Below, piece by piece: positions 25,835 to 48,743 of a stretch of 64,000 nt of DNA (within the stretch, counting starts at the first letter, position 1; each line of letters opens with the position of its first letter). The notes under the pieces are model-generated. The model saw only the letters and a list, made by a program, of their open reading frames with translations. It made no database searches and was not told the origin of the DNA. Made by a program: the position numbers and the translations under genes. Location of the stretch: NCBI GenBank assembly GCA_021817345.1, contig JAKAVC010000138.1:24734-88733 (forward strand). The letters are read 5' to 3'. The DNA is from Deltaproteobacteria bacterium (lineage in GTDB: Bacteria; Desulfobacterota; Binatia; Binatales; Binataceae).

Positions 25835-28345
25835 CTACCAACCGGTTATGTGAATGTTCGGCGTGAGCCAGCGTTTATGTGCGATGTTGCCCTTGATGTT
25901 ATTGATATATTTTACTGCCGCGGGATCGTACCATCCCCCCGAGTAGTGCATCCCGATACACCCCCAGAGGAGCGTGTCGAGGTTGGCCTGGCTGGGATTG
26001 TTTGCGTAGGCTGCCGCGTCTTCGGCGTAAGTGTTATGGCCGGGTTGGGCGGGACGCCTCGCAAAATACGGCGCCCAATCGCCATTGATACATGATCGCG
26101 TGTCGGCAAAGCGGTATTCCGCGGCGAATGACGTTGAGTCCTTGATCATCGGCCACGTCTTCCACTCATAGTACACTTTTGTCTGCCACGCCGACCACGA
26201 GGTATAGCAACAGTACGGGCATGATGCTTTGCGCCCGTCGGCGAGCGGGATAGTGGTATTCCAGAGCGCGGCGAACCCGTCCTGGACGCATTGCGGTCGC
26301 GTGGTTCGCTTGTCACCGGTCGTCCATTGGCGCCAGAAGCTTTCCTCCCAGGCCTGGCCACGAACCACGTTTTCGTCGATTCCGTACTTGCACGCCGCCC
26401 ATCGCATGATCATGTCGGTGGAACCCGTGTAGTCGCCCTTGATTCGCGCGTATTGCGCGTAGCTCGCCAGTGTCTCGAACGTGTACCCTTCCGCTCTGAA
26501 AGCGGCGAGATCGGAGGGGGTGGCGACGGTTCGATTAAAGGGGATGTTGCCTGGAATGGTCTCGGGGGTGGAAGGAATCTCCGCCGCGCATTGCCGTCCG
26601 CTTGGCAGCGCCGCGTGCGGCGGCAGAGTCGGAAAATACCCGTCCTCGCGCAACGCCGAGGTCAACACCCGCGCCCCCGCGCCAGGCTCCGACGCGGACG
26701 CCGGCCGCGCGAACGCCACCGTCAGAATCACCGGCAGGACAAGGGTGGCCGCACCCGCGAACATCCGGCGCGGATCACGCGCGGAGAGAGAGCCTGTGGC
26801 GGCGTCCGGAATCGCTTGAAGCGTCATGACGCGTTGCCGCTCCGCGATCATCCAAAGGAGATAGAACATGATTCCATCCATGCGGTGAACGTCTCCTATG
26901 CCGGCCTCCGCGAACGCGCGGCAGAACGAAGGCAGTATCAGGAAGAAAAACAGGGGCTTCAGGTTCCAGGGATCCCCTGGGCGTCTGAGGAGCGCAATCC
27001 AGGGTCGCAGCATGATGCAAAGCCAGAAAACAAGCGCGGGAACTCCGAGTCCCACCGCGATCGATAAATAACCTTCATGAGTCGAGGTGTCCGGCCCCTG
27101 CGACCAGAAGCTGTCCCAGCTTGGAAAACGCGGGTCCTTGAAAATCGCGCCTTCGACATCGTACCCGTAGCCGGTAAAAGGCCGTTCCAGTATTTTCCGC
27201 AGTTCGAACTTCCAAGCGAGCGTTCGCCCCGTAAGCGTGGTGACATCGCGGCTCACCCCCAGCTTTGCCGTGGCTCCCAACGCGCCGTAAACCAGCGCGC
27301 CGGCGAGAGCGACCGCCGCGCACACGAGCATCCCGCGTGCCCGATACCTCCAGAGCAAATACGCGCCAGCTCCAATAGCCAGCGCGACCGCAGGTGAGCG
27401 CGAGTCGGCCATCAGGTCGAAGACGGCCCCCGCCAGAATACTGAAGGCCAGTACCACACGTTGCCGGCGCGTCGCGCGTCCCCAGATGCTCAACGCGACG
27501 CCAATACTCAGGAACGCCAGGCTGCCGACCACGTTGGGGCTGTAGAAGACTCCCTCGAACCGGTCGATGCCCGAGGTATCGCGAATCCACGTGTACATGC
27601 CGGTCGCGTCGTGGACCGCACGCCATGCGCCCGTCCAAGTGCCCCCTTCAACAAATACCCTTCGCGGCAATGCGACCGCGGCAAATGCCGTCAGGCAGAG
27701 AAGGACCCCGCATCCGGCGAGAAAGCCCCACAAAACCGCATCCACGTCCGTCGCGCAAGCGGTCGAAAGCGAGACCGCCGCGAGTGCCGCGAACAGAAGC
27801 ACTGTGGGGACGAGACGGCCGGCCGAGATCAATGGGTCGAGGGAATAGATGACCGAGACCGCCGCCCATCCAAAGTACACGAGGAATACGGCGAGGTAGC
27901 GCTCCCTGACTACTCCTCTATGGTACGCGGCCGCAATGGCCGGCAGGCAGAATGCGAGAAGCAGTGGATAATGCAGCCACCATCGCTTCTCAGGGTCAAG
28001 CGGAATCAGATTGACATAAGGCAGGGCCTCCACCAGCACCAGGGCGGGCACCAGCCGGAGCGGATTACGCGTGGTCCATCCAACCGTCCAAAGCAGTAAC
28101 GCCCCGCCGACTAATCCGGCGATCGCAAATGCCAGATAGAGCGAATGGATGTTCAGAACCAGGACCGCCAGCATTCCGAGCGCGGCCGCGGAGGCGACGA
28201 CGGCGAGGCGCGGCGGAACGCGCGCGGGCCGCACCTCGAGGTCATCGAAGAGGCGATGACGCTCGGAGGCCGGCCCCGGCGAGTCGAAGATCTTCGCTTC
28301 CCCACGCGGGCGCGGGGCGCCGGAAAACGCCTCCGTGCTATCCAT
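25835..28345 (-). CDS. O-antigen ligase/polymerase-like membrane protein fused to a secreted Cys-rich lysozyme-like domain
   Basis: Last gene of the exopolysaccharide operon. I take the ATG at 28345, which overlaps the upstream stop (ATGGATAG); the track start at 28414 adds 23 residues. The N-terminal roughly 525 aa (numbering from 28345) is a multi-helix Wzy/WaaL-like protein with a periplasmic loop containing TLTGRTLAWKFELRKI and GYGYDVEG, which join or polymerise polysaccharide repeats. Then comes a sequence that looks like a signal peptide inside the chain (MFAGAATLVLPVILTVAFARPASASEPG, near 26764). The roughly 280-aa tail has several Cys residues and motif GIDENVVRGQAWEESFW, which resembles the Glu-containing motif of lytic transglycosylases. 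It would face the periplasm. A broken second copy of the tail lies at 43636. Confidence 0.82.
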   Translation of the reverse strand: MDSTEAFSGAPRPRGEAKIFDSPGPASERHRLFDDLEVRPARVPPRLAVVASAAALGMLAVLVLNIHSLYLAFAIAGLVGGALLLWTVGWTTRNPLRLVPALVLVEALPYVNLIPLDPEKRWWLHYPLLLAFCLPAIAAAYHRGVVRERYLAVFLVYFGWAAVSVIYSLDPLISAGRLVPTVLLFAALAAVSLSTACATDVDAVLWGFLAGCGVLLCLTAFAAVALPRRVFVEGGTWTGAWRAVHDATGMYTWIRDTSGIDRFEGVFYSPNVVGSLAFLSIGVALSIWGRATRRQRVVLAFSILAGAVFDLMADSRSPAVALAIGAGAYLLWRYRARGMLVCAAVALAGALVYGALGATAKLGVSRDVTTLTGRTLAWKFELRKILERPFTGYGYDVEGAIFKDPRFPSWDSFWSQGPDTSTHEGYLSIAVGLGVPALVFWLCIMLRPWIALLRRPGDPWNLKPLFFFLILPSFCRAFAEAGIGDVHRMDGIMFYLLWMIAERQRVMTLQAIPDAATGSLSARDPRRMFAGAATLVLPVILTVAFARPASASEPGAGARVLTSALREDGYFPTLPPHAALPSGRQCAAEIPSTPETIPGNIPFNRTVATPSDLAAFRAEGYTFETLASYAQYARIKGDYTGSTDMIMRWAACKYGIDENVVRGQAWEESFWRQWTTGDKRTTRPQCVQDGFAALWNTTIPLADGRKASCPYCCYTSWSAWQTKVYYEWKTWPMIKDSTSFAAEYRFADTRSCINGDWAPYFARRPAQPGHNTYAEDAAAYANNPSQANLDTLLWGCIGMHYSGGWYDPAAVKYINNIKGNIAHKRWLTPNIHITGW

Positions 28346-29129
28346 CGGAATTTCCGGACGCGAGGCCATTTCTTCGCGGAGCCCGCTCGCCCAGTTCCGC
28401 CGCGCGCAGTTCATTCGAGTACAGGATTGCGCGCAGGAGCGGCGACTCGGCGAGATTCAGCAAAAGGTTTATATTCGGGATTACGCAGTGGCCGCCGATA
28501 AACCCGGGGAAGTAACGAACGCGCGGCAGGAAGTCGATTTCGTCGAAGAAGCTCGTGATCTCGAAATAGTCTCCATCGACGCGTTCCGCGTAACGATTCA
28601 GCTCCTGGGCAAAGGCGATCAATGTGCCGAAGTAGGTTGTCTCGGCGAGCTTGGCGAGCTCAAGGGTCTCGGGCCGGCTGACGCGGGCGGTTTTCATCCC
28701 AGCCGCCTGGAAGTGCTTTTCCGCGTAGGCGGCGGTATCGATGTCCGTCGCGGCCACGAACTTTACATAGTGCAGAAGGTCCCGCGCCATGCGCACGTGC
28801 TTGCCGCGCACCGGGCTATAGGCGACCGCCACTCCCGTGCGGTCCGCGACAGAGCGCGTCGTCCCGGGCGGCACCGTACTGTTGATCACGGTCAGGCGCG
28901 GCGCGAAACGCCTGATGTACTCGCACGCGGTATCGACGAAGTCGGCCCCGCGAAACGGAAAACATATGTGCATGACCTCGACGGGCTGCTCGAATTCGCG
29001 CGGTTCTATATCGTGTCGCAGGACCGTCCCGCGCTTTTCGAGCACGTCCGCGAGCGCGCCGCCCACTTCGCCCATCCCGACGACCAAGGTTGCTCCGTTA
29101 ACATCCGTCTTTTTCACTGTGCGGTTCAT
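28338..29129 (-). CDS. Short nucleotide-sugar dehydrogenase-like protein
   Basis: 263-aa Rossmann protein. The N-terminus ATLVVGMGEVGGALADVLEKRG binds a dinucleotide. INSTVPPGTTRSVAD, RGKHVRMARDLL, and PETLELAKLAETTYFGTLIAFAQELN match UDP-glucose/UDP-N-acetyl-sugar 6-dehydrogenases, and FPGFIGGHCVIPN parallels their catalytic Cys loop (GGxC). Normal enzymes are 400-450 aa; this one lacks most of the C-terminal UDP-sugar-binding domain. It could be a trimmed paralogue with another role or a partly degraded gene. Its overlap with the glycosyltransferase (4 nt) and the ligase suggests it is still translated. In this operon it could have supplied uronic-acid oxidation (WbpA-like) for the diacetamido sugar, which is inference. 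Confidence 0.7.
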   Translation of the reverse strand: MNRTVKKTDVNGATLVVGMGEVGGALADVLEKRGTVLRHDIEPREFEQPVEVMHICFPFRGADFVDTACEYIRRFAPRLTVINSTVPPGTTRSVADRTGVAVAYSPVRGKHVRMARDLLHYVKFVAATDIDTAAYAEKHFQAAGMKTARVSRPETLELAKLAETTYFGTLIAFAQELNRYAERVDGDYFEITSFFDEIDFLPRVRYFPGFIGGHCVIPNINLLLNLAESPLLRAILYSNELRAAELGERAPRRNGLASGNSDG

Positions 29130-39461: not shown

Positions 39462-40802
39462 TTACCTTCCGGCGTCCGCCGCCCCCGTAGCGGGCAAATA
39501 GATGATCTCTCCCGGGTAGATCCGGTCGGCGTCTCTCAGTTGCGGATTTGCCGCCATCAGCCGATCGACGTCGTAGGGCGAGCCAAGGTAGCGCTCCGCT
39601 ATCGCGCTCAGCGTGTCGCGGTATCTAACCCGTATCCTGCGCGGCATTTGCGGCTCGCTTTGCTTCGGAGCGGACGCCGCTCTTTGGGCGGCATTTTTCG
39701 GACTCGCGCTCGCCTCGGACGGGGCGGTCGAGAACAGTACCGGCGTGCCGGCGGGCGCCGAATCGAGCGATGCGTCCGCGGGCTCGGGCGGCGCGGCGAT
39801 GACGAGGTTGCGTGATTCGTCGCGTTCGGCGCTTGAAACGGCCGGGGTGCTGACATGGCCATAATCCGACGAGCGCACGTAGACAGCGCCGATAGTGGCG
39901 CCCAGCGCTACGAGCCCTATCAACGGAGCCGCAAACCGAAGCGGCACGAGCGCCGCGAAACGCCGCTTGCCTGCCGGGGCACGCCTCGAAGCGGCGAAAA
40001 AATTCTGATACGCGGCAACCGCCTCCTTTGCCGTGGCGAGATCCACTCGTGGGCGCCCTTCGCCGTACGCGAGCAGCATCGCGTTGTGGCATAGCACGTT
40101 GATTCCGCGCGGAAGGCCGCCGCTATGGGCGAGCAGGCAACTAAGCGCCCGCGCGTCAAAAATGCTTCCGGCATTTCCCCCCTTGAGGCTCACGCGATGC
40201 TCGACGTAAGCGCGCGCTTCCTCGGGGCCGAGCGGATTCAGCACCGCGCGAGCGCCGATTCTTCCGTTCAGGCTTCGCGCTCTCGACTGTGAAAGACGCT
40301 CGCCAAGTTCCGGCTGTCCGATAAGCAGGATCTGGAGCCTGCGCTCGGCGGCGGTATCGACATTGGACAGCAGGCGCAATTCCTCGAGTGTGTCGTCGGA
40401 GAGTTCCTGCGCCTCGTCGAACAGAAGCGCGATGCGTTCGTCGCTTGCGAGGCGGTCGAGCGACGCCACGAACGCGTCGAGCATCTCGGGCTTGCTTCGC
40501 CCCGCCGCCTCGATTCCGAGCTGCTCCAGCGCGGCAAGCATCAAGCGCTCGAAGCCGAGCCTTGGGTTTCCGAAATAAGCCGCGCGGATGTTGGCGTAAT
40601 GGCGGGCGAGGACGGCGAAAACCAGCGTGGTTTTTCCGGTTCCGGTTTCGCCCATCAAAACGGTCAGACCGCTCGGCTCGTTGGTCATGCCCCATTCGAG
40701 CAGAGCGAGCGCCTCTCGATGCTCCTTGCCGAGGTAGATGGCGTCCGGAGTCGGGTTGAACTGGAAGGGAGGACCGCTCAGTCCGAAATGCGCGTGATAC
40801 AT
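39462..40802 (-). CDS. ExeA/MSHA-like AAA ATPase with C-terminal LysM
   Basis: 446 aa; the start at ATG 40802 gives the family N-terminus MYHAHFGLSGPPFQFNPTPDAIYLG. AAA domain: Walker A MGETGTGKTTLVF (about 50), Walker B ALLFDEAQELSDDTLEELRLLSN, sensor QILLIGQPEL, C-terminal helical part SGGLPRGINVLCHNAMLLAYGEG. A single membrane helix follows (FAAPLIGLVALGATIGAVYV), then an Ala/Ser/Pro linker and a periplasmic LysM (RVRYRDTLSAIAERYLGSPYDVDRLMAANPQ...IYPGEIIYLP), which would bind peptidoglycan. This AAA type is a constant member of XrtA-type polysaccharide loci. The added LysM makes it a wall-anchored version. Confidence 0.88.
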   Translation of the reverse strand: MYHAHFGLSGPPFQFNPTPDAIYLGKEHREALALLEWGMTNEPSGLTVLMGETGTGKTTLVFAVLARHYANIRAAYFGNPRLGFERLMLAALEQLGIEAAGRSKPEMLDAFVASLDRLASDERIALLFDEAQELSDDTLEELRLLSNVDTAAERRLQILLIGQPELGERLSQSRARSLNGRIGARAVLNPLGPEEARAYVEHRVSLKGGNAGSIFDARALSCLLAHSGGLPRGINVLCHNAMLLAYGEGRPRVDLATAKEAVAAYQNFFAASRRAPAGKRRFAALVPLRFAAPLIGLVALGATIGAVYVRSSDYGHVSTPAVSSAERDESRNLVIAAPPEPADASLDSAPAGTPVLFSTAPSEASASPKNAAQRAASAPKQSEPQMPRRIRVRYRDTLSAIAERYLGSPYDVDRLMAANPQLRDADRIYPGEIIYLPATGAADAGR

Positions 40803-40809
40803 GGCTTCC

Positions 40810-42324
40810 CTACTGCGCCTCGCGAAGAACCGCCACGGTTGAAAGTCCGCTCGCCTGCGCGATCGATACGGCGGAATAGAGCCGCGGATCGGCTCTTTCC
40901 CGCAGGCATGCGGCGGCAAACCCCGCGGCCAGGGCGAGAATCGTGCCCACCAGGAGATTGAGCCAGACGATCGGAAAGGCCGGCTGAAGGGGCAGATTCG
41001 GCGCCTGCGCAACACTGACGTCGAGGATTTGTTCGCTGTTCAGCCCCTCGGCCGCGCGAGCCTCCTCGGCCTTGCGCAGATACGAGAGGTAGGCTTCCTT
41101 CTTGGCCGTCACGTCGCGTTCGAGCCGTTCGATCTCCAGGCCGGAGTTGATCAGATCGGCAAGCTGTTTGCGCGTCGCGCTTATTTGCTGCCCGAGCGCG
41201 TCGGTCCGGGCTTTGAGCGAAGCCGCGCTGGTTTCGGCCTGCTTGAAGTTCGTGTCCACGCTGACCCAGACGGGGTTCAGGTCGGTGCTCTTCTCCTGCA
41301 CCACCAGGTGATCCTCGCGGTCGAGGACCGCCTCGGCGGCGGCCAGCTTGGCGTCGATCTCCTGAATCCGGCGGCTGGTCGGCTGATAGCGCGTAAGCAG
41401 TTCGGCGCGCTTGGCCTTGAGTTCCATGACCTGCGGTTTGAGCTGCTGAAGCGCGAGGTTCTGCACCGAGCGCACTTTCCCCGGGATTCGAGCGGGAGTG
41501 TTTGCCAGTTCGATCCGCAGTTGCGCGGCCTGCCGGTTTGCCGAGGCCAGGTCGGCCGCACTCTTCGAGTACTGGAGTTGCAGGTCGGAGAGCCGGTTGA
41601 CGAGCGCCTGCTTCTGATCGCCCAGGTTGGTTATTCCGGTCTGAAGTTCGAAGGCGCGAAGCTTGTTCTCCGATTGATTGAGCTGCGCGTTGAGCAGCCT
41701 GGTTTGCTTGCTAAAGAAGGCAGCGGCCTGCGGGTCGTGCGAGATACGCGCGTGATAGGCGAGATACTGATCGATTAGCCGGCGGAGAAAAGCACGCGAC
41801 CATTGAGAATCGTGCGACTCGAATTCGACGTCGATTACGTTGGAGCGGTTCACCACGTATGCCTGCAGGCGGCGCGCAAGCTTGAGCGCCCACTGATCGT
41901 TCGGGTCAAGCGCGGGAACCCCGTGGAGCGAACGATACCCGAGCGCCGGAACGTCGAGCGCGTCGCCGAGAATGCTTGTAACGGCATGCGCGGCGCTATC
42001 GTTCGGCGGCTCCTTAAGCCCGGCGATCGCGCGTTTGACAAGGTAGAGGCTGGTGAGCAACTGGACTTCGGAGTTGAGGTCCTGCTCGCTTACCGGATTC
42101 GCGACAATCGCGGGATTCTCGGGCGAAGCGGTCTGCAGCCCCGGCGAGACCAGCAACTGCGCGCGATTGTCCTGCACCAGGATTTTCGCGTGCGACTTGT
42201 AGACCGGCGGCCAGGCAAGCGTGATGAGCACAACCACGCCCATTACGACGCTTGCGACCTCGATCAGGGTCGTCCGCCGCCTGTAGGCGATATCAAGCCA
42301 GTAATTCATATCGCGACGCACCAT
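40810..42324 (-). CDS. Polysaccharide chain-length determinant (GumC/Wzc N-terminal type)
   Basis: 504-aa inner-membrane protein with two membrane helices: ASVVMGVVVLITLAWPPVY near residue 25-45 and FPIVWLNLLVGTILALAAGFAAACL near the C-terminus. Between them are the Wzz domain (YKSHAKILVQDNRAQLL, LNSEVQLLTS), a very long periplasmic coiled coil (about 190-400), and the GNVR-type element in LEIERLERDVTAKKEAYLSYLRKAEEA. No kinase domain is fused; the degenerate kinase-like protein two genes on may play its role. The start ATG has gggag upstream, and the gene follows the Wza-like gene by 21 bp. Confidence 0.9.
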   Translation of the reverse strand: MVRRDMNYWLDIAYRRRTTLIEVASVVMGVVVLITLAWPPVYKSHAKILVQDNRAQLLVSPGLQTASPENPAIVANPVSEQDLNSEVQLLTSLYLVKRAIAGLKEPPNDSAAHAVTSILGDALDVPALGYRSLHGVPALDPNDQWALKLARRLQAYVVNRSNVIDVEFESHDSQWSRAFLRRLIDQYLAYHARISHDPQAAAFFSKQTRLLNAQLNQSENKLRAFELQTGITNLGDQKQALVNRLSDLQLQYSKSAADLASANRQAAQLRIELANTPARIPGKVRSVQNLALQQLKPQVMELKAKRAELLTRYQPTSRRIQEIDAKLAAAEAVLDREDHLVVQEKSTDLNPVWVSVDTNFKQAETSAASLKARTDALGQQISATRKQLADLINSGLEIERLERDVTAKKEAYLSYLRKAEEARAAEGLNSEQILDVSVAQAPNLPLQPAFPIVWLNLLVGTILALAAGFAAACLRERADPRLYSAVSIAQASGLSTVAVLREAQ

Positions 42325-42345: not shown

Positions 42346-43158
42346 TTACGGGATCGGCACGGCAAGGTAAGGCGGGACCGGCAACAGGCCCTGGATGTAC
42401 TGCTTTACGAACAGGTCGACGTTGGCGATCCGGCTGCGCGGCACGACGAGAACGTCATACGGCATCAGCATCGCGTCGTTGCCCTGGCCCGGATGGTCCA
42501 CGGCGGAGGCCAGGTCCAGCCGCTCGCCCTGTACATTTCCACACGCGTCGCGGCGGACCAGCACGACGCTGCTGTCGGTGGCGTCGTCCGTGAATCCGCC
42601 GGCTTCGGCGATCGCCTGGAGCGCCGTCATCCCGCCAAGCAACGGGAACGCTCCCGGATGATTCACCTGTCCTTCGACGTAAACTTGCCGCGCGGGCATA
42701 TTCTTCACGTCAACGACGGCATCCGGCACCCGAAGCTCGGTGGAGTAGGCCTTGTCGATTTCCTGCGAAAGCTCCGGCGGAGTGAGACCGGCGGCCTTGA
42801 GCTGGCCGACCAGTTTGAGAGTGATCATGCCGTCCGGTCCAACGCTGACCTGGTCGTCGAATTCCGGCGACAGGTAAAAGCTGATCGCGAGTTGATCGCC
42901 CGGCTGAATCCGATACTCATTCGGGTTGGTCGAAGGCGCCGCGTACGCGGCGGGCAGACAGGGCTCGGTTCCGGCGCTTGCGGGCGTGCCGCTTGCGACG
43001 TCGCCTCTGGCTGCGGAGCCGGAAGAGCATCCGCAAAGCATCAGCGCGAACAGCGCCGCGCACGTCAAAGCTGTCGCGCCACCCACCATTCGCGCCACGC
43101 GTCGGCGATTTTGGCGCCGACGCTCCCAAGGCGACCGTGACAGCCAGTCCCAACTCAT
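42346..43158 (-). CDS. Polysaccharide export lipoprotein (Wza/GumB-like)
   Basis: First gene of the operon; 270 aa; forms the outer-membrane/periplasmic export channel. The start ATG 43158 is preferred over the longer track start. It has a cytoplasmic basic tail, then a signal with lipobox (ALFALMLCGCSSG). The Poly_export domain is EYRIQPGDQLAISFYLSPEFDDQVSVGPDGMITLKLVGQLKAAGLTPPELSQEIDKAY, then a SLBB domain QVYVEGQVNHPGAFPLLGGMTALQAIAEAGGF. Its short length is typical of GumB/XrtA-linked forms. The non-coding 43159-43635 upstream, with perfect dyads, is the probable operon promoter. Confidence 0.92.
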   Translation of the reverse strand: MSWDWLSRSPWERRRQNRRRVARMVGGATALTCAALFALMLCGCSSGSAARGDVASGTPASAGTEPCLPAAYAAPSTNPNEYRIQPGDQLAISFYLSPEFDDQVSVGPDGMITLKLVGQLKAAGLTPPELSQEIDKAYSTELRVPDAVVDVKNMPARQVYVEGQVNHPGAFPLLGGMTALQAIAEAGGFTDDATDSSVVLVRRDACGNVQGERLDLASAVDHPGQGNDAMLMPYDVLVVPRSRIANVDLFVKQYIQGLLPVPPYLAVPIP

Positions 43159-43635
43159 AAGATTCCAGCGCGATGCGCCGCCGCGTCCCGGCGGTTTGAC
43201 CGAAGCCGGGCAGGACCGCCGGGACGCTTTGCGCTGTCGCCGTTCCTCCGCTTTCGCGGCGCATTCCACCACCACACACACCCGACGTTTTAGTATTTGC
43301 AGGGTCTCGCTGATTCGAAGCTCCGCGTTTCGTTGAAGCGACCCCGTCGCAACGCGCATGCCGACGACGGAAACACGGGAAATCCTTTTGTTCTTGTCGC
43401 GAGTGCGTCGCGGGATGCAGATTGTGGTCTGCAAACTTTTTCCCGATGCGGAAAAAGTTACCGACGGTCGCCGTCGCAATCGGAATCCCGGATGCGGGAC
43501 CGGTTGGCGCGCCGAACGGCTAGCGGCGAAAAGATGCGCAAGGAAAAGTCAGAAAAGCGAACGCGCTGAAGAGGGCGGCTTCGCCGGATCGCGCGAGCGC
43601 CGCAGACGCGATTTTATATCACGCCTGCGGCGCTC
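43159..43635. other. Non-coding leader/promoter region of the exopolysaccharide operon
   Basis: About 477 bp upstream of the Wza-like gene, with no ORF showing family features (43297..43569 and 43358..43708 read as chance frames). It contains two neighbouring dyads annotated separately. No clear sigma-54 -24/-12 element was found on the minus strand. Confidence 0.5.
43417..43459. promoter_or_regulatory. Two adjacent perfect dyads upstream of the exopolysaccharide operon
   Basis: aactttttcc (43434-43443) pairs perfectly with ggaaaaagtt (43450-43459) over a cgatgc loop. Immediately beside it is tgcaga...tctgca (about 43416-43433). On the minus strand these are roughly 260-300 nt before the Wza-like start. 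They could be an operator, a transcript leader hairpin or the terminator of the broken unit upstream; the sequence alone does not say which. Confidence 0.5.
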
Positions 43636-43900
43636 TCAGGGTTGCGAACCCGCTATGGCTTGGGCCACGGACGGTTGTAGAGGTGCCCCCTGGATCGTGT
43701 TGATATAATTGAGCGTTCCCGAATCGAACCAGCTTCCGCTGTACCAGTCGCCCATGCATCCTCACAGCATCTGGCTCAAATCACCGTCAGGATAGCTCGG
43801 ATAACCGGTCGAGAGGGGTGCGGCTGGCGAGATAGTTGATGTCGCCGTTCAGGCACGCGCGAGCGTGCGGAAGCATTTCGACCGCGGCCCGCGGGGGATG
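43636..43900 (-). pseudogene. Broken copy of the secreted Cys-rich domain found at the C-terminus of the O-antigen ligase-like protein
   Basis: Not in the ORF track. Reading the minus strand, one frame gives AAVEMLPHARACLNGDINYLA, matching AAEYRFADTRSCINGDWAPYF of the ligase tail. A frame change near 43800-43815 then gives GYPSYPDGDLSQML-stop-GCMGDWYSGSWFDSG and LNYINTIQG, matching NPSQANLDTLLWGCIGMHYSGGWYDP and VKYINNIKG. The in-frame TGA (43762-43764) stands exactly where the intact copy has Trp (LLWGC), a one-base TGG-to-TGA change. The frame ends at a TGA at 43636. The 5' boundary is approximate, because the sequence merges with a transposase remnant. With a stop and a frameshift it is a pseudogene. 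Confidence 0.75.
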
Positions 43901-43939
43901 TCCGCCGATTGCGCGGAGCTGGCGGCGCAACCGGGAGCG

Positions 43940-44085
43940 CCAAGGCTTGGCCGTCGCGCACGATCAGCGCATCTCCTTGCTAATTGCGCTCGACGTAGGC
44001 GTCAGCCTCGGCCTTGAGCGCCCCAATCAGCATGTCGTTGCGCGCGCCCGACCGGCCGCAACGACGCGTCAAAACCTCTCGCTCA
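43940..44085 (-). mobile_element. IS256-family transposase remnant (N-terminal fragment)
   Basis: Manual translation of the minus strand gives RNDMLIGALKAEADAYVERN, an in-frame TAG (43980-43982), then QGDALIVRDGQA. This parallels the N-terminal region of IS256-type transposases, where a motif like ALKAEADAYVExxxxxRDxxGxALVVRNGxA is common. Only about 50 codons remain; no DDE catalytic core or inverted repeats were recognised. It abuts the broken ligase-tail copy and marks a rearrangement scar at the head of the exopolysaccharide locus. The similarity is recalled rather than searched. Confidence 0.5.
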
Positions 44086-44126
44086 TTTTCCCTGCGTCCA
44101 GCCTGATGACCGCCATTGGGCGGCGG

Positions 44127-44357
44127 CTAGGCCGCGCTATGCGTTCCGCCCGCGCCTTGCGGGTTCGCCGGATGACCGGTTCCGATCCGTGCAAGGATTT
44201 TCTCCGCAGGACAGAATCCGGTGAACGCCGATTGCAGCAGGTTCAAGCCCACGAACAAATCCAGGAATAGCCAGTATGGACTCCATACCAGCCACAGGAA
44301 AAGGCCGATCACAACGAACGAGCCGGCCAGCGCGCGGACTTTCCTTTCGAGTGTCAT
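44127..44357 (-). CDS. DUF2892-family small membrane protein
   Basis: 76-aa inner-membrane protein: ERKVRALAGSFVVIGLFLWLVWSPYWLFLDLFVGLNLLQSAFTGFCPAEKIL. Two membrane helices and the closing GLNLLQSAFTGFCPAEKIL are the hallmark of DUF2892 (the YgaP C-terminal type, where the tail is usually GxNxxQSxxTGFCPxxxxL). Its role is not established; it often occurs fused to or beside rhodanese and efflux genes. Start overlaps the RND pump stop by 4 nt (ATGA), so it is the last gene of the efflux operon. Confidence 0.85.
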   Translation of the reverse strand: MTLERKVRALAGSFVVIGLFLWLVWSPYWLFLDLFVGLNLLQSAFTGFCPAEKILARIGTGHPANPQGAGGTHSAA

Positions 44358-47300
44358 TGCTGAGTTTCCTCCTCATCCGGTCCAGAGCCGGGAGCCCCGG
44401 CCGGAGCATTGCGATACGCCATGTAGTAGATGAGCGGAATTACGACGAGGGTGAAAGCGGTCGAGGCGAAAATCCCGAAGATGAACGCCCAGGCAAGGCC
44501 TGAGAAAATCGGGTCCAGCGTGATCACCGCCGAGCCGAGGGCCGCCGCTCCCGCGGTAAGCACGATCGGGCGCAAGCGGATCGCGCCCGCTTCGAGCACC
44601 GCTTCCTTGAGCGCAAGGCCGCGCGCCATGCCGTGATGGATGAAATCGATCAGGATGATCGAGTTTCGCACCACGATTCCGGCCAGCGCGATCATTCCGA
44701 TCATCGCCGTTGCGGTGAAAAATGTGGGGTCGGCGTAGCCCGCGATATGCGCCTCGGTCAGCAGGTTCAGGATGAAGAAGCCGGGCATGATGCCAATCAG
44801 CGTGAGCGGAATCGCGGCCATGATGATGAGCGAGATCGCCATCGACTCGGTCTGCGCGACCAGCAGCACAAAGATGAAGAACAGCGCCGCGCCAAAGGCG
44901 ATCCCGAGATCGCGGAAGACGGTCACCGTGATGTGCCATTCGCCCTCGCCCGACCAATTGATGGTGTAGCCGGGCGGAAACATCTTTGCCGTGTGGCTTT
45001 CGAGCCATAACACTTCGTTGACCGGGCTCTCGCCGACCGTCTCGGCCATCACGAACACCACGCGGCGCAAATCCTTGTGATAGATCGGCTGCTCGGCGAG
45101 CGTGCGCTTGACCGTGCCCAGTTCCGACAGCGGCACCATCGCGCCGCCCGCGCCGCGAAGCCTGACCGAGGAGAGCAGGCGTCCGATCGACGAGCGGTCC
45201 GCGCGCGGCATCCTAAGCTCGACTAAAAGCGGCGTGCGCTCGGTGTTGGTATGCACCGGCACGACGGCGCGTCCGCCGAGCACGATCGCAAGCGTCTGGG
45301 CCGCCTGCTCGACGCTCACTCCGTTGAGCGCGGCCTTGCGGCGATCGAGCATGAACTGAAGCCGCGGCTGGGCGGCGATCGACGAGTCGTCGGTGTCGGC
45401 GAGCCCGGCGGTATGTTCGAAGACCTTCCTGAGTTCGCGCCCGTACGCGATCATCTGGCTGTATTCGGTGCCCGCCATGGGGCCGTAGATTTCCGCGACC
45501 ACGCTGGCGAGCACCGGCGGCCCGGGGGGTGTTTCGACGATCTGGATCGTCTTGGCGTGATCGCGGCGCGCGATTTTTTCGACCTCGGGCCGAATCCGGA
45601 GCGCAAACTCGTGCGAGCCTTCGGCGCGATCGGCCTTGGGCGCGAGCTCGATACGGACCTGGCCCTGCCACGGTTCGCGGCGCATGTAGTAATGGCGCAC
45701 CATCCCGTTGAATCCGAACGGCGCCGCCGTGCCAGCGTAGGTTTGAAAGGCGGTCACCTCGGGCTCGCGGGCCATCAACTGGCCGAGATCGTCGAGAACC
45801 TTGTTGGTGTCCTCGACCGGCGTTCCCTCCGGCATGTTGACCACGAGTTGAAGCTCGTTCTTGTTGTCGAACGGGAGCATTTTGACGGGCACCAGGCCCG
45901 CGACGACCAGCAGGATTGAAACGATCAGCGCGCCGACCACGCCGAACAGGAACATCCGCGCGCGGCGCGGGTTGTCGAGCAGCGGTTCGAGCACCCGCCG
46001 GTACCATCTCCGGACCCACGCGGCTTCCTCTTGTGGCTCTTTTTCCGCCGGACGATCGTACTCTTTGCGCAGCAGGTGGTAACAGGCCCACGGAGTTATC
46101 GTGAAGGCGACGATCAGCGACATCAGCATCGCGAGCGGCACGTTGAACGGCATCGGCCGCATGTACGGCCCCATCATCCCGGTCACGAACAGCATCGGGA
46201 TGAACGACAGGATGACGGCGAAAGTCGCCAGGATGGTCGGCGGCCGAACTTCATCGACTGCGACGAGCGTCGCCCGGCGCGGCGGATGGGTGCGCAGGCG
46301 GAAGTGGCGATGGATATTCTCGACGTCAACGATCGGGTCGTCGACCAGAAGCCCGAGCGAGAGGATCAGCGCGAAAAGCGTGACGCGGTTTATCGTGTAG
46401 CCGGCGAGCAGATTTCCCACCAGCGTTACCGCGAGCGTGACCGGCACCGCTATCGCCACGATGAACGCCTCGCGCATCCCGAGCGAGACAGCGAGCAGGA
46501 CCACGATAATCGCGACCGCGATAAGCAGTTCGCGCACCAGTTCGTTGACCTTCTCGTTGGCGGTCTCGCCGTAATTGCGCGTGACCATCACGTGAACGTC
46601 CGACGGAATCGCGACGCCCCTGAGCTCTTCGACCTTGTGGAGCACCTGCTCGGCCACCGATACGGCGTTGGTGCCCTGGCGCTTGGCGATCGCGATTGTG
46701 ACGGCGGGAAAAGTCTCGCCGCGCTTGCCGATAAGGCCGAGCTTCAGTTGCCCCTGCTCCCGGTTCAGGTAATGAGCCGCGGGACCGAAGCCCAGCCTCA
46801 CGTAATCGGTGGCTTCGGCGGGCCCGTCAATCACGCGAGCGACGTCGCGCAGGTAAACCGGGCGGCCGTCGCGCACGCCGACGACCAGGTTTCGCACTTC
46901 GGCGGCGCTGTGAAGGAACGGACCGCTGTCAACGATATAGACCTGGTTGTTGCGGTCGAAGGTGCCGGCCCGAAGATTGGCATCCGCGCCCTGGAGCGCC
47001 TGGGACACTTCAAGCGGGGCCAGGCCGTGCCCGGCGAGGCGGCCCGCGTCGAGCATCACGCGAATCTGGCGCGGGCGCCCTCCGACGATAAACGATTTTC
47101 CGGTATTCGGCACCTGTTGCAGGCGATGGAGGATTTCGTCGGCGATTCGCCGCAACTGGGCGTCGCTTTCGGTCGCGCTGTAAAGGGTCAGGGTGACAAT
47201 CGGAACGTCGTTGATTCCGATCGGCTTGACGATCCATCCGGTGACGCCCGGCGGAACAGCGTCGCGGTTGGACTCGATCTTGTTGTAGATCTCGACGAGC

Positions 47301-47641
47301 GCCTGCGTCTCGTTGAATCCGACCTTGAAGCGCACCGTGACCATCGCCTGCCCGGGCATCGAGACCGAGTAGATGTGCTTGACGCCCTCCATCTCCCAGA
47401 GCCGGCGTTCGAGATTGATGGTGACGAGGTTTTCGACCTCGGCGGCCGTCGAGCCGGGCATCTGCACGATGATGTCCGCCATCGGGACGACGATTTGCGG
47501 GTCTTCCTCGCGCGGGGTGACCGCTAGCGCGACGATTCCCGCCGCAAGCGAGGCAAGCAGCAGCAGGACGGACAGGTTCGAGCCGAGGAAGCGATCGACT
47601 ATCCTCGCGGTGAGTCCGAGTTTTTCGCCGTTGTCAGCCAT
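44354..47641 (-). CDS. RND-family efflux pump, inner-membrane subunit
   Basis: Proton-driven exporter of 1095 aa, the usual RND length, with 12 membrane helices and two large periplasmic loops. Start ATG 47641 overlaps the adaptor stop (ATGGCTGA); the longer track start enters the adaptor frame. Visible: TM1 SVLLLLASLAAGIVALAV, REEDPQIVVPMADI, TM4 with the proton-relay Asp pair in LGLLVDDPIVDVENIHRHF, and a second half with LIIMAAIPLTLIGIMPGFF and AGIVVRNSIILIDFIHHG. The DDPIVDVEN variant and REEDPQI match the AcrB/acriflavin-resistance-like HAE branch more than CusA. Substrate unknown. Confidence 0.93.
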   Translation of the reverse strand: MADNGEKLGLTARIVDRFLGSNLSVLLLLASLAAGIVALAVTPREEDPQIVVPMADIIVQMPGSTAAEVENLVTINLERRLWEMEGVKHIYSVSMPGQAMVTVRFKVGFNETQALVEIYNKIESNRDAVPPGVTGWIVKPIGINDVPIVTLTLYSATESDAQLRRIADEILHRLQQVPNTGKSFIVGGRPRQIRVMLDAGRLAGHGLAPLEVSQALQGADANLRAGTFDRNNQVYIVDSGPFLHSAAEVRNLVVGVRDGRPVYLRDVARVIDGPAEATDYVRLGFGPAAHYLNREQGQLKLGLIGKRGETFPAVTIAIAKRQGTNAVSVAEQVLHKVEELRGVAIPSDVHVMVTRNYGETANEKVNELVRELLIAVAIIVVLLAVSLGMREAFIVAIAVPVTLAVTLVGNLLAGYTINRVTLFALILSLGLLVDDPIVDVENIHRHFRLRTHPPRRATLVAVDEVRPPTILATFAVILSFIPMLFVTGMMGPYMRPMPFNVPLAMLMSLIVAFTITPWACYHLLRKEYDRPAEKEPQEEAAWVRRWYRRVLEPLLDNPRRARMFLFGVVGALIVSILLVVAGLVPVKMLPFDNKNELQLVVNMPEGTPVEDTNKVLDDLGQLMAREPEVTAFQTYAGTAAPFGFNGMVRHYYMRREPWQGQVRIELAPKADRAEGSHEFALRIRPEVEKIARRDHAKTIQIVETPPGPPVLASVVAEIYGPMAGTEYSQMIAYGRELRKVFEHTAGLADTDDSSIAAQPRLQFMLDRRKAALNGVSVEQAAQTLAIVLGGRAVVPVHTNTERTPLLVELRMPRADRSSIGRLLSSVRLRGAGGAMVPLSELGTVKRTLAEQPIYHKDLRRVVFVMAETVGESPVNEVLWLESHTAKMFPPGYTINWSGEGEWHITVTVFRDLGIAFGAALFFIFVLLVAQTESMAISLIIMAAIPLTLIGIMPGFFILNLLTEAHIAGYADPTFFTATAMIGMIALAGIVVRNSIILIDFIHHGMARGLALKEAVLEAGAIRLRPIVLTAGAAALGSAVITLDPIFSGLAWAFIFGIFASTAFTLVVIPLIYYMAYRNAPAGAPGSGPDEEETQQ

Positions 47642-48743
47642 GGGAGAACCGGTCGGCGGCCATCTTCGCGCCATCTTTAAGCAGGACCCTGTCGCCCTGC
47701 TGAAGCCCTGAGAGCACTTCGACGCGGTCGCCATAGACGCGCCCGATCGTGATTTGGCGCACCCGCACCGCGCCGCGCTCGAGCACCCGGACGGTGTCGA
47801 TCTGGCCGACGCTTTCCACCGCCGAGCGCGCGACGGTCAGGATTTTTTCCGTGCCCACGTCGAACGAGGCGCTGGCGAACATGCCGGGCCTGAGACCGAG
47901 GTCGGAAGGCATCGGCGCGCGCACCAGGAAGGTGCGGCTTGCAGGATCGGCCGCCGGCACGATTTCGTTGATTTTGGTTGAGATGGTGCGGCCTGCGGCC
48001 TGGACGTTCACCTTAAGCGGCATCCCGACCGAGATGTCGCGGGTCAGTTCCTCGGGGACGCGGAGTTCGACGCGCAGCTCGTGGGAGTCGTACACGCGCA
48101 CGAGCGGCTTGCCGGGCAACGCCATGTCTCCCGGCTCGACCATTCGTTCGGCGACCACGCCGGCAACCGGCGAGCGCACGATCGCGTAGCGCAGCGAGGC
48201 CTCGGCGGCGGCGACCTGGGCCCGCGCGGACTCGACGTCGCCGCGGCTCGCGCGGTAGTTGGCCTGAACGGCATCGAACTCATGGGCGGTCACCGAGCCG
48301 CGCTTCAGGAGCGCGTCGAAGCGATGTTCGTCCTTGGTCGCGCGGTCGAGATTGGCACGCGCGGCGGCGAGCTGGCCGCTTGCGCGGGCGACCCCGGCCT
48401 TGAGGTCCGAGTCGTCGAGCCGCACGAGCACCTGGCCGACCTTGACCGGATCACCCGCGTGCACGGTCACCTCTTTCACTGTGGCCGAGACCCGGCTTGC
48501 GGCATCGACCTCGATTCGCGACTGCACGGTTCCGATCGCCTCGCGCGTGTTGGCGACGGTTTCAAACCGCACGATATCGATCGGGGCGTTGGGAACGCGG
48601 GAGACGGGGGGGCCAAGCAGGCCCGGTTCGATTTTGCCGCGTCCGACCAAAGCCACGATGACCGCCAGCAAGAGCGCGGTTCCGATCAGGACCGCGACGA
48701 GCCTTCGTTTCGGCATTCGATCCTCTGAAGCGCGTCGGTTCAT
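47634..48743 (-). CDS. RND efflux periplasmic adaptor (HlyD/MFP family)
   Basis: 369-aa membrane-fusion protein that links pump and TolC. The N-terminal anchor is RRLVAVLIGTALLLAVIVALV, followed by the barrel-sandwich lipoyl halves (SATVKEVTVHAGDPVKVGQVLVRLDDSDL and AIVRSPVAGVVAERMVEPGDMALPGKPLVRVY), an alpha-hairpin between them (about 100-160), and then the beta-barrel and membrane-proximal domains (ELRVPEELTRDISVGMPL, PGMFASASFDVG). No N-terminal Cys lipobox is seen, so it is a helix-anchored type. Stop overlaps the pump start; 2 nt separate it from tolC. Confidence 0.92.
   Translation of the reverse strand: MNRRASEDRMPKRRLVAVLIGTALLLAVIVALVGRGKIEPGLLGPPVSRVPNAPIDIVRFETVANTREAIGTVQSRIEVDAASRVSATVKEVTVHAGDPVKVGQVLVRLDDSDLKAGVARASGQLAAARANLDRATKDEHRFDALLKRGSVTAHEFDAVQANYRASRGDVESARAQVAAAEASLRYAIVRSPVAGVVAERMVEPGDMALPGKPLVRVYDSHELRVELRVPEELTRDISVGMPLKVNVQAAGRTISTKINEIVPAADPASRTFLVRAPMPSDLGLRPGMFASASFDVGTEKILTVARSAVESVGQIDTVRVLERGAVRVRQITIGRVYGDRVEVLSGLQQGDRVLLKDGAKMAADRFSHG

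Follow-up and report, generated by a model that had tools for sequence, protein, structure and literature searches.

Remains of a secreted-domain gene upstream of an exopolysaccharide operon, and their relation to the domain fused to the Wzy ligase of the same locus

In PelA and AlgL, hydrolase/lyase domains are built into exopolysaccharide (EPS) systems. The same holds for PgaB, in which such a domain forms part of an EPS system (PMC5933820). The present locus can also be compared with the Wzy_C (PF04932) O-antigen ligase/polymerase family, with the SLT/GH23 lytic transglycosylases (MltF, MltE, Slt) and with the Mutator-type (PF00872, IS256-like) insertion sequences. The window, i.e. the whole stretch of 64,000 nucleotides analysed here, carries an EPS operon that contains wza, wzz, an AAA/LysM gene, a second ATPase-like gene, an oxidoreductase, a hexapeptide transferase, a DegT aminotransferase, a sugar transferase, a flippase, glycosyltransferases, a UDP-sugar dehydrogenase and wzy. 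It is kept, with some reordering, in the related genomes G006, G009, G022, G024, G025, G026 and G037, and is partly present on contigs of G032 and G040. The C-terminal LysM domain of the operon ATPase (AAA_22, 39462-41015) is an odd pairing for an EPS-locus ATPase. The wza leader contains a strong hairpin, CGTCCCGGCGG...CCGCCGGGACG (43240-43190, minus strand), which is kept in the sister species G001 (L080, ~260-300) and is possibly a leader element of the operon.

The wzy gene encodes an 859-residue ligase, with PF04932 at residues 334-465 (E = 2.1e-16) and a secreted domain fused to its C-terminus (Table 1). A preliminary description of the window placed a decayed second copy of this domain at 43636-43900, upstream of wza. 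The peptides that it quoted are all present on the minus strand where it located them, and the interval does contain decayed domain sequence, but its boundaries have to be moved. On the 3' side, HLYNRPWPKP followed by TAG matches the C-termini of the relatives' proteins, and the homologous gene end is 43653 and not 43636. On the other side, the first ~40 bases (43900-43862) belong to an insertion-sequence fragment and lie outside the gene remnant, called stump hereafter. TBLASTN of the C-terminal 310 aa of the ligase against the window, a check that had been proposed, recovered the stump as the sole further significant match (43812-43687, minus strand; E = 8e-6, 17/43 identical residues, one in-line TGA). 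In blastn, the stump shares 78% DNA identity with an intact gene found in a relative (E = 1.8e-24). Its local alignment scores 160, whereas none of 1000 shuffles scored above 42, and the profile of the closer subfamily detects it in its own genome at E = 6.6e-17. Chance similarity is thus excluded. A search of the whole genome found the domain at two places, the ligase tail and the stump, besides one match at E = 0.24.

Table 1. Positions of the features discussed, in window coordinates
Feature	Position	Strand	Remarks
Wzy_C polymerase/ligase with fused C-terminal secreted domain	25835..28414	-	
Fused domain, subfamily A	25838..26692	-	intact; signal-peptide-like segment before it
wza-like gene (Poly_export + SLBB), EPS operon head	42346..43140	-	TTG-initiated ORF reaches 43479
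18-bp hairpin, terminator-like without T run	43595..43635	-	predicted -37 kcal/mol
Stump: decayed 3' end of subfamily-B secreted-domain gene	43653..43861	-	~65-70 codons, 0.2 kb
Stump, frame 1	43861 to ~43812	-	
Stump, frame 2	~43811 to ~43691	-	
Stump, frame 3	~43690 to stop	-	stop 43655-43653
In-frame TGA at conserved Trp of (L/M)LWGC	43762..43764	-	
Internal fragment of Mutator-type (PF00872) transposase	43856..43938	+	6-nt overlap with stump
Second Mutator-type transposase, fragment near N-terminus	43944..44033	-	stop inside
Synteny breakpoint versus sister species G001	44126		

Relative to the intact stand-alone gene G037:C231, the stump carries three lesions: a frameshift near 43811, another near 43690, and a TGA codon. 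The TGA replaces the conserved Trp of LLWGC, as had been reported; the single frame change claimed earlier is also there, and the second frameshift comes in addition. Intact relatives comprise 300-400 codons, and the 5' four-fifths (~80%) of the gene are missing here. Having no continuous frame from a start codon and signal peptide to a stop, the stump is not an intact protein-coding gene. The genome is a metagenome-assembled draft of 176 contigs and single-base indels do happen in such assemblies, so that the frame changes and the stop might be assembly or sequencing errors in a gene that is intact but mis-assembled. This is hardly credible, because three independent lesions fall within 200 bp, most of the gene is absent and transposase sequence adjoins the break. 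Dating the decay by its codon-position pattern was uninformative: third-position changes (25/67, versus 16/68 and 16/68) gave the same numbers in an intact control pair.

The stump belongs to the same superfamily as the C-terminal domain of the ligase, with significant similarity over the C-terminal motif CxNGD...GC.G.xYSGxW(Y/F)D. Over 66 aligned residues it shares 65% identity with the stand-alone G037:C231, 52-62% with most subfamily-B genes and 39% with its own ligase tail, and the earlier wording that it closely tracks this tail was too strong. A maximum-likelihood tree of 31 domains was calculated and then repeated with the C-terminal columns of the stump alone. The stump falls within subfamily B (support 100/99, and 99/97 on its own columns) as sister to G037:C231 (94/92), while the fused tail of the present genome groups with that of G001 in subfamily A. 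The stump does not cluster with the fused tails of G000 and G001 (YFAxx..QP..TYAxD pattern). What had been described as a decayed copy is thus decayed and of the same superfamily but, judged by its sequence, is a distant cousin of the ligase-fused domain.

The domain was found in 18 of the 41 genomes of the bacterial family, some with up to ten matches, and in 2 of the 297 genomes of a phylum-wide sample, both from this same family. Of 42 domain loci, 20 have a Poly_export or Wzy_C gene no more than 10 kb away, where about 1.0 would be expected from a simple Poisson estimate that treats these related genomes as independent, which they are not. Some stand-alone members (L048 5605-6744, L061 2446-4356) have bacterial Ig domains (Big_7, PF17957) at the N-terminus and are thus modular secreted proteins. 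Further broken copies with in-frame stops were seen in relatives (G037:C204:3275-3829; L071 3275-4748; G036:C392, L024/L036), suggesting by their sequences an ongoing birth and death in the family. Searches of PHROGs and of plasmids gave no useful match for the domain.

Comparison with related genomes, also proposed earlier, showed that three relatives of other genera (G022:C196, G024:C43 and G025:C29) have an intact domain gene directly upstream of wza, in the same orientation and within the same conserved operon. Stump and wza likewise share a strand, and the ~710-720 bp that separate the end of the domain gene from the Poly_export match in the window compare with 634-919 bp in these relatives. 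The stretch from head gene to wza in the three genomes has no similarity to that of the window, and in the sister G001 contig C59 stops 175-190 bp short of the head region. The intact head genes make it plausible, at the level of sequence, that a stand-alone domain gene once stood at the head of the present operon, as the preliminary description had supposed. The head gene of G022 is a stand-alone member of subfamily B and those of G024 and G025 belong to subfamily C, showing that the head slot has held different paralogues. G024 and G025 carry in addition a wzy-domain fusion of subfamily B at the other end of the operon. Since both genes are intact there, a head domain gene together with a fused tail gene is a natural and stable arrangement, which the window would show with a dead head gene.

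This bears on the second part of the earlier proposal, in which the fused copy replaced the head gene or the reverse. Both copies do lie in one locus and come from one superfamily, as a duplicate pair would. However, their identities (39% as against the 65% between the stump and its closest relative), their placement in different, well-supported subfamilies and the intact coexistence of head and fused copies in G024 and G025 make such a pair very improbable. The gene that lies 4 bp after wzy in G032 and the signal-peptide-like joints of the fused proteins, both described below, indicate another source for the fusion. As relatives carry both kinds intact, neither is likely to have replaced the other.

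Two transposase scraps adjoin the stump. The first, on the opposite strand, matches the interior of a transposase that is intact in G036 (PF00872, E = 7.8e-133); the six bases it shares with the stump are CGCGCG. The second matches another PF00872 transposase, from G028. Both resemble PF00872 transposase genes, being 77-86% identical in DNA to those of relatives, but in contrast to full IS256-like elements only 83-90 bp are left of each, and no terminal repeats or target duplications were identified at them. When the DNA of the stump is aligned with intact genes, the match mostly starts at 43861, in a few cases at 43858 or a little further upstream, and extends to ~43665. The transposase fragment ends where these alignments start, which supports a junction with transposase debris. 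Further out, 44126-48000 is colinear with G001 at 86.6% identity and carries an RND efflux operon, whereas G001 has unrelated DNA to the left of 44126. A search of the present genome for the DNA that follows the RND operon in G001 (G001:C101, L047 9113-19501) gave no match. On its tail side, the EPS locus aligns with contigs of G001, and the order in which these contigs end is consistent. The transposase scraps, the loss of synteny and this contig order place the stump at a rearrangement point, with the change in either genome. The hairpin at 43595-43635 was also considered as a repetitive element and rejected, as the genome holds no other near-complete copy; an Rfam search of 42900-44200 gave no match.

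The scraps and the synteny break would also suit passenger debris of a multi-copy family, dropped between the EPS and RND operons by an IS-mediated rearrangement and never a functional head gene; the broken copies elsewhere in other genomes are in line with this, as is the closest intact relative of the stump, G037:C231, for which the 16 kb examined contain no match to an EPS gene. We nevertheless consider it unlikely. Strand and spacing to wza agree with the intact head genes of three relatives, a strong hairpin follows the end of the stump, and 20 of the 42 family loci lie at wza or wzy. Moreover, no transposase match was found between stump and wza, the debris being on the far side only.

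We favour, as fairly probable, the reading that the stump is what is left, at the 3' end, of a former stand-alone head gene truncated by an IS-linked rearrangement, that the ligase tail is an independent paralogue and that the intact members act on polysaccharide or peptidoglycan. In the order of events that we infer, the EPS operon would have begun with a gene for a secreted, probably lysozyme-like protein from a multi-copy family restricted to this lineage. Two Mutator-type insertion sequences would have been involved in a rearrangement that brought the EPS locus up against the side with the RND-efflux operon and, in doing so, took away the promoter and the 5' four-fifths of the head gene; frameshifts and a stop would have built up in the stump afterwards. 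The ligase-tail domain, a different paralogue (subfamily A), would have come from a neighbour on the downstream side of wzy in an independent fusion, without giving rise to the head gene or taking its place. For intact members the most likely site of action would be the periplasm, where, by way of a lysozyme-like fold with a conserved Glu, they would act on polysaccharide, either nascent or already exported, or on the peptidoglycan that surrounds the export machine.

The fused protein resembles the Wzy_C family over its N-terminal ~550 aa, whereas the extra C-terminal secreted domain of ~285 aa lies outside the family model and has no family match in Pfam. In the fused proteins, Wzy and domain are separated by a hydrophobic segment that leads up to a signal-peptidase-like motif (ARAQ, ASAS). 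A separate wzy-domain fusion, of subfamily B, is found in genus g9 (G024, G025, G026). In G032, 4 bp separate the frame of wzy from that of a stand-alone subfamily-B gene behind it on the same strand, and on G037:C204 such a gene lies close behind wzy, again on the same strand. The unfused arrangement in G032 and the signal-peptide-like remains at the joints make it more likely that the fusion arose when wzy was read through into the next gene downstream, one that carried a signal peptide; we infer fusion rather than fission as the direction. The data fit at least two such events, with subfamily A in the present genus and subfamily B in genus g9. The head gene would have had no part in the origin of the wzy fusion. 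No published account of such a Wzy fusion was found in a literature search.

To what fold the domain belongs was addressed with predicted structures, which are mostly helical (pLDDT 88.8 for the ligase tail and 79.7 for G037:C231). For both models the best Foldseek matches in the PDB are mostly lytic transglycosylases or muramidases (MltF/MltE/Tse3) and are not significant (E >= 0.14, TM 0.2-0.4). Weak Pfam SLT/Glucosaminidase matches were obtained for 6-7 of 30 members (SLT alone 6/30; best E 0.005), the SLT score of 15.6 bits staying below the curated cut-off of 21.3. Aligned by profile with E. coli Slt, the domain comes to lie on the catalytic Glu-Ser of that enzyme, at a non-significant E of 0.18-0.25. 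The Glu at tail position 117 is conserved in at least 90% of the 30 members, and the fused copy of G026 has Gln instead, which leaves a binding role possible for some copies. A profile search of the PDB by sequence returned only a spurious photosystem subunit, and NCBIfam only weak, implausible methyltransferase matches. A possible resemblance to SLT/GH23 enzymes lies in the conserved Glu(-Ser) at a helix and, in subfamily B, in the S-(W/Y)-G-I-(L/S)-Q-x-K that follows the Glu and recalls the SLT motif G-L-M-Q. In contrast to these enzymes, the domain has long N- and C-terminal parts of its own with invariant Cys, and its genomic ties are to EPS assembly and not to cell-wall genes. From models and profiles, a divergent lysozyme-like fold appears likely. 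In its intact form the domain would then probably be a periplasmic enzyme, lysozyme-like but divergent, and linked to the assembly of polysaccharide. The best working model, which we hold tentatively, is that it cleaves carbohydrate at the EPS machine.

Fossil genes next to insertion-sequence scraps are commonplace; the domain family behind this one is less so. It is undescribed and, in this survey, confined to one bacterial family. It occurs at EPS loci about twenty times above expectation, and it has been fused to Wzy in two lineages from different subfamilies. Repeated fusion is good evidence of a physical or functional link between domain and Wzy, and offers a concrete way of testing whether polymers made by Wzy undergo processing where they are synthesised. 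A wider reading, conceivable but rather doubtful at present, sees in the family lineage-restricted lysozyme-fold enzymes for Wzx/Wzy EPS assembly that would have been tethered independently, at least twice, to Wzy in order to trim or transfer the nascent periplasmic chain; paralogues would be born and die at fixed slots, the operon head and the wzy tail, and the stump would be one such death. The likeness to PgaB, PelA and AlgL is that a secreted carbohydrate-active protein, predicted as such here, lies in an EPS locus or is fused within it. Those proteins serve synthase-dependent systems, whereas the present locus is of the Wzx/Wzy type, and here the putative domain is fused to the polymerase/ligase itself.
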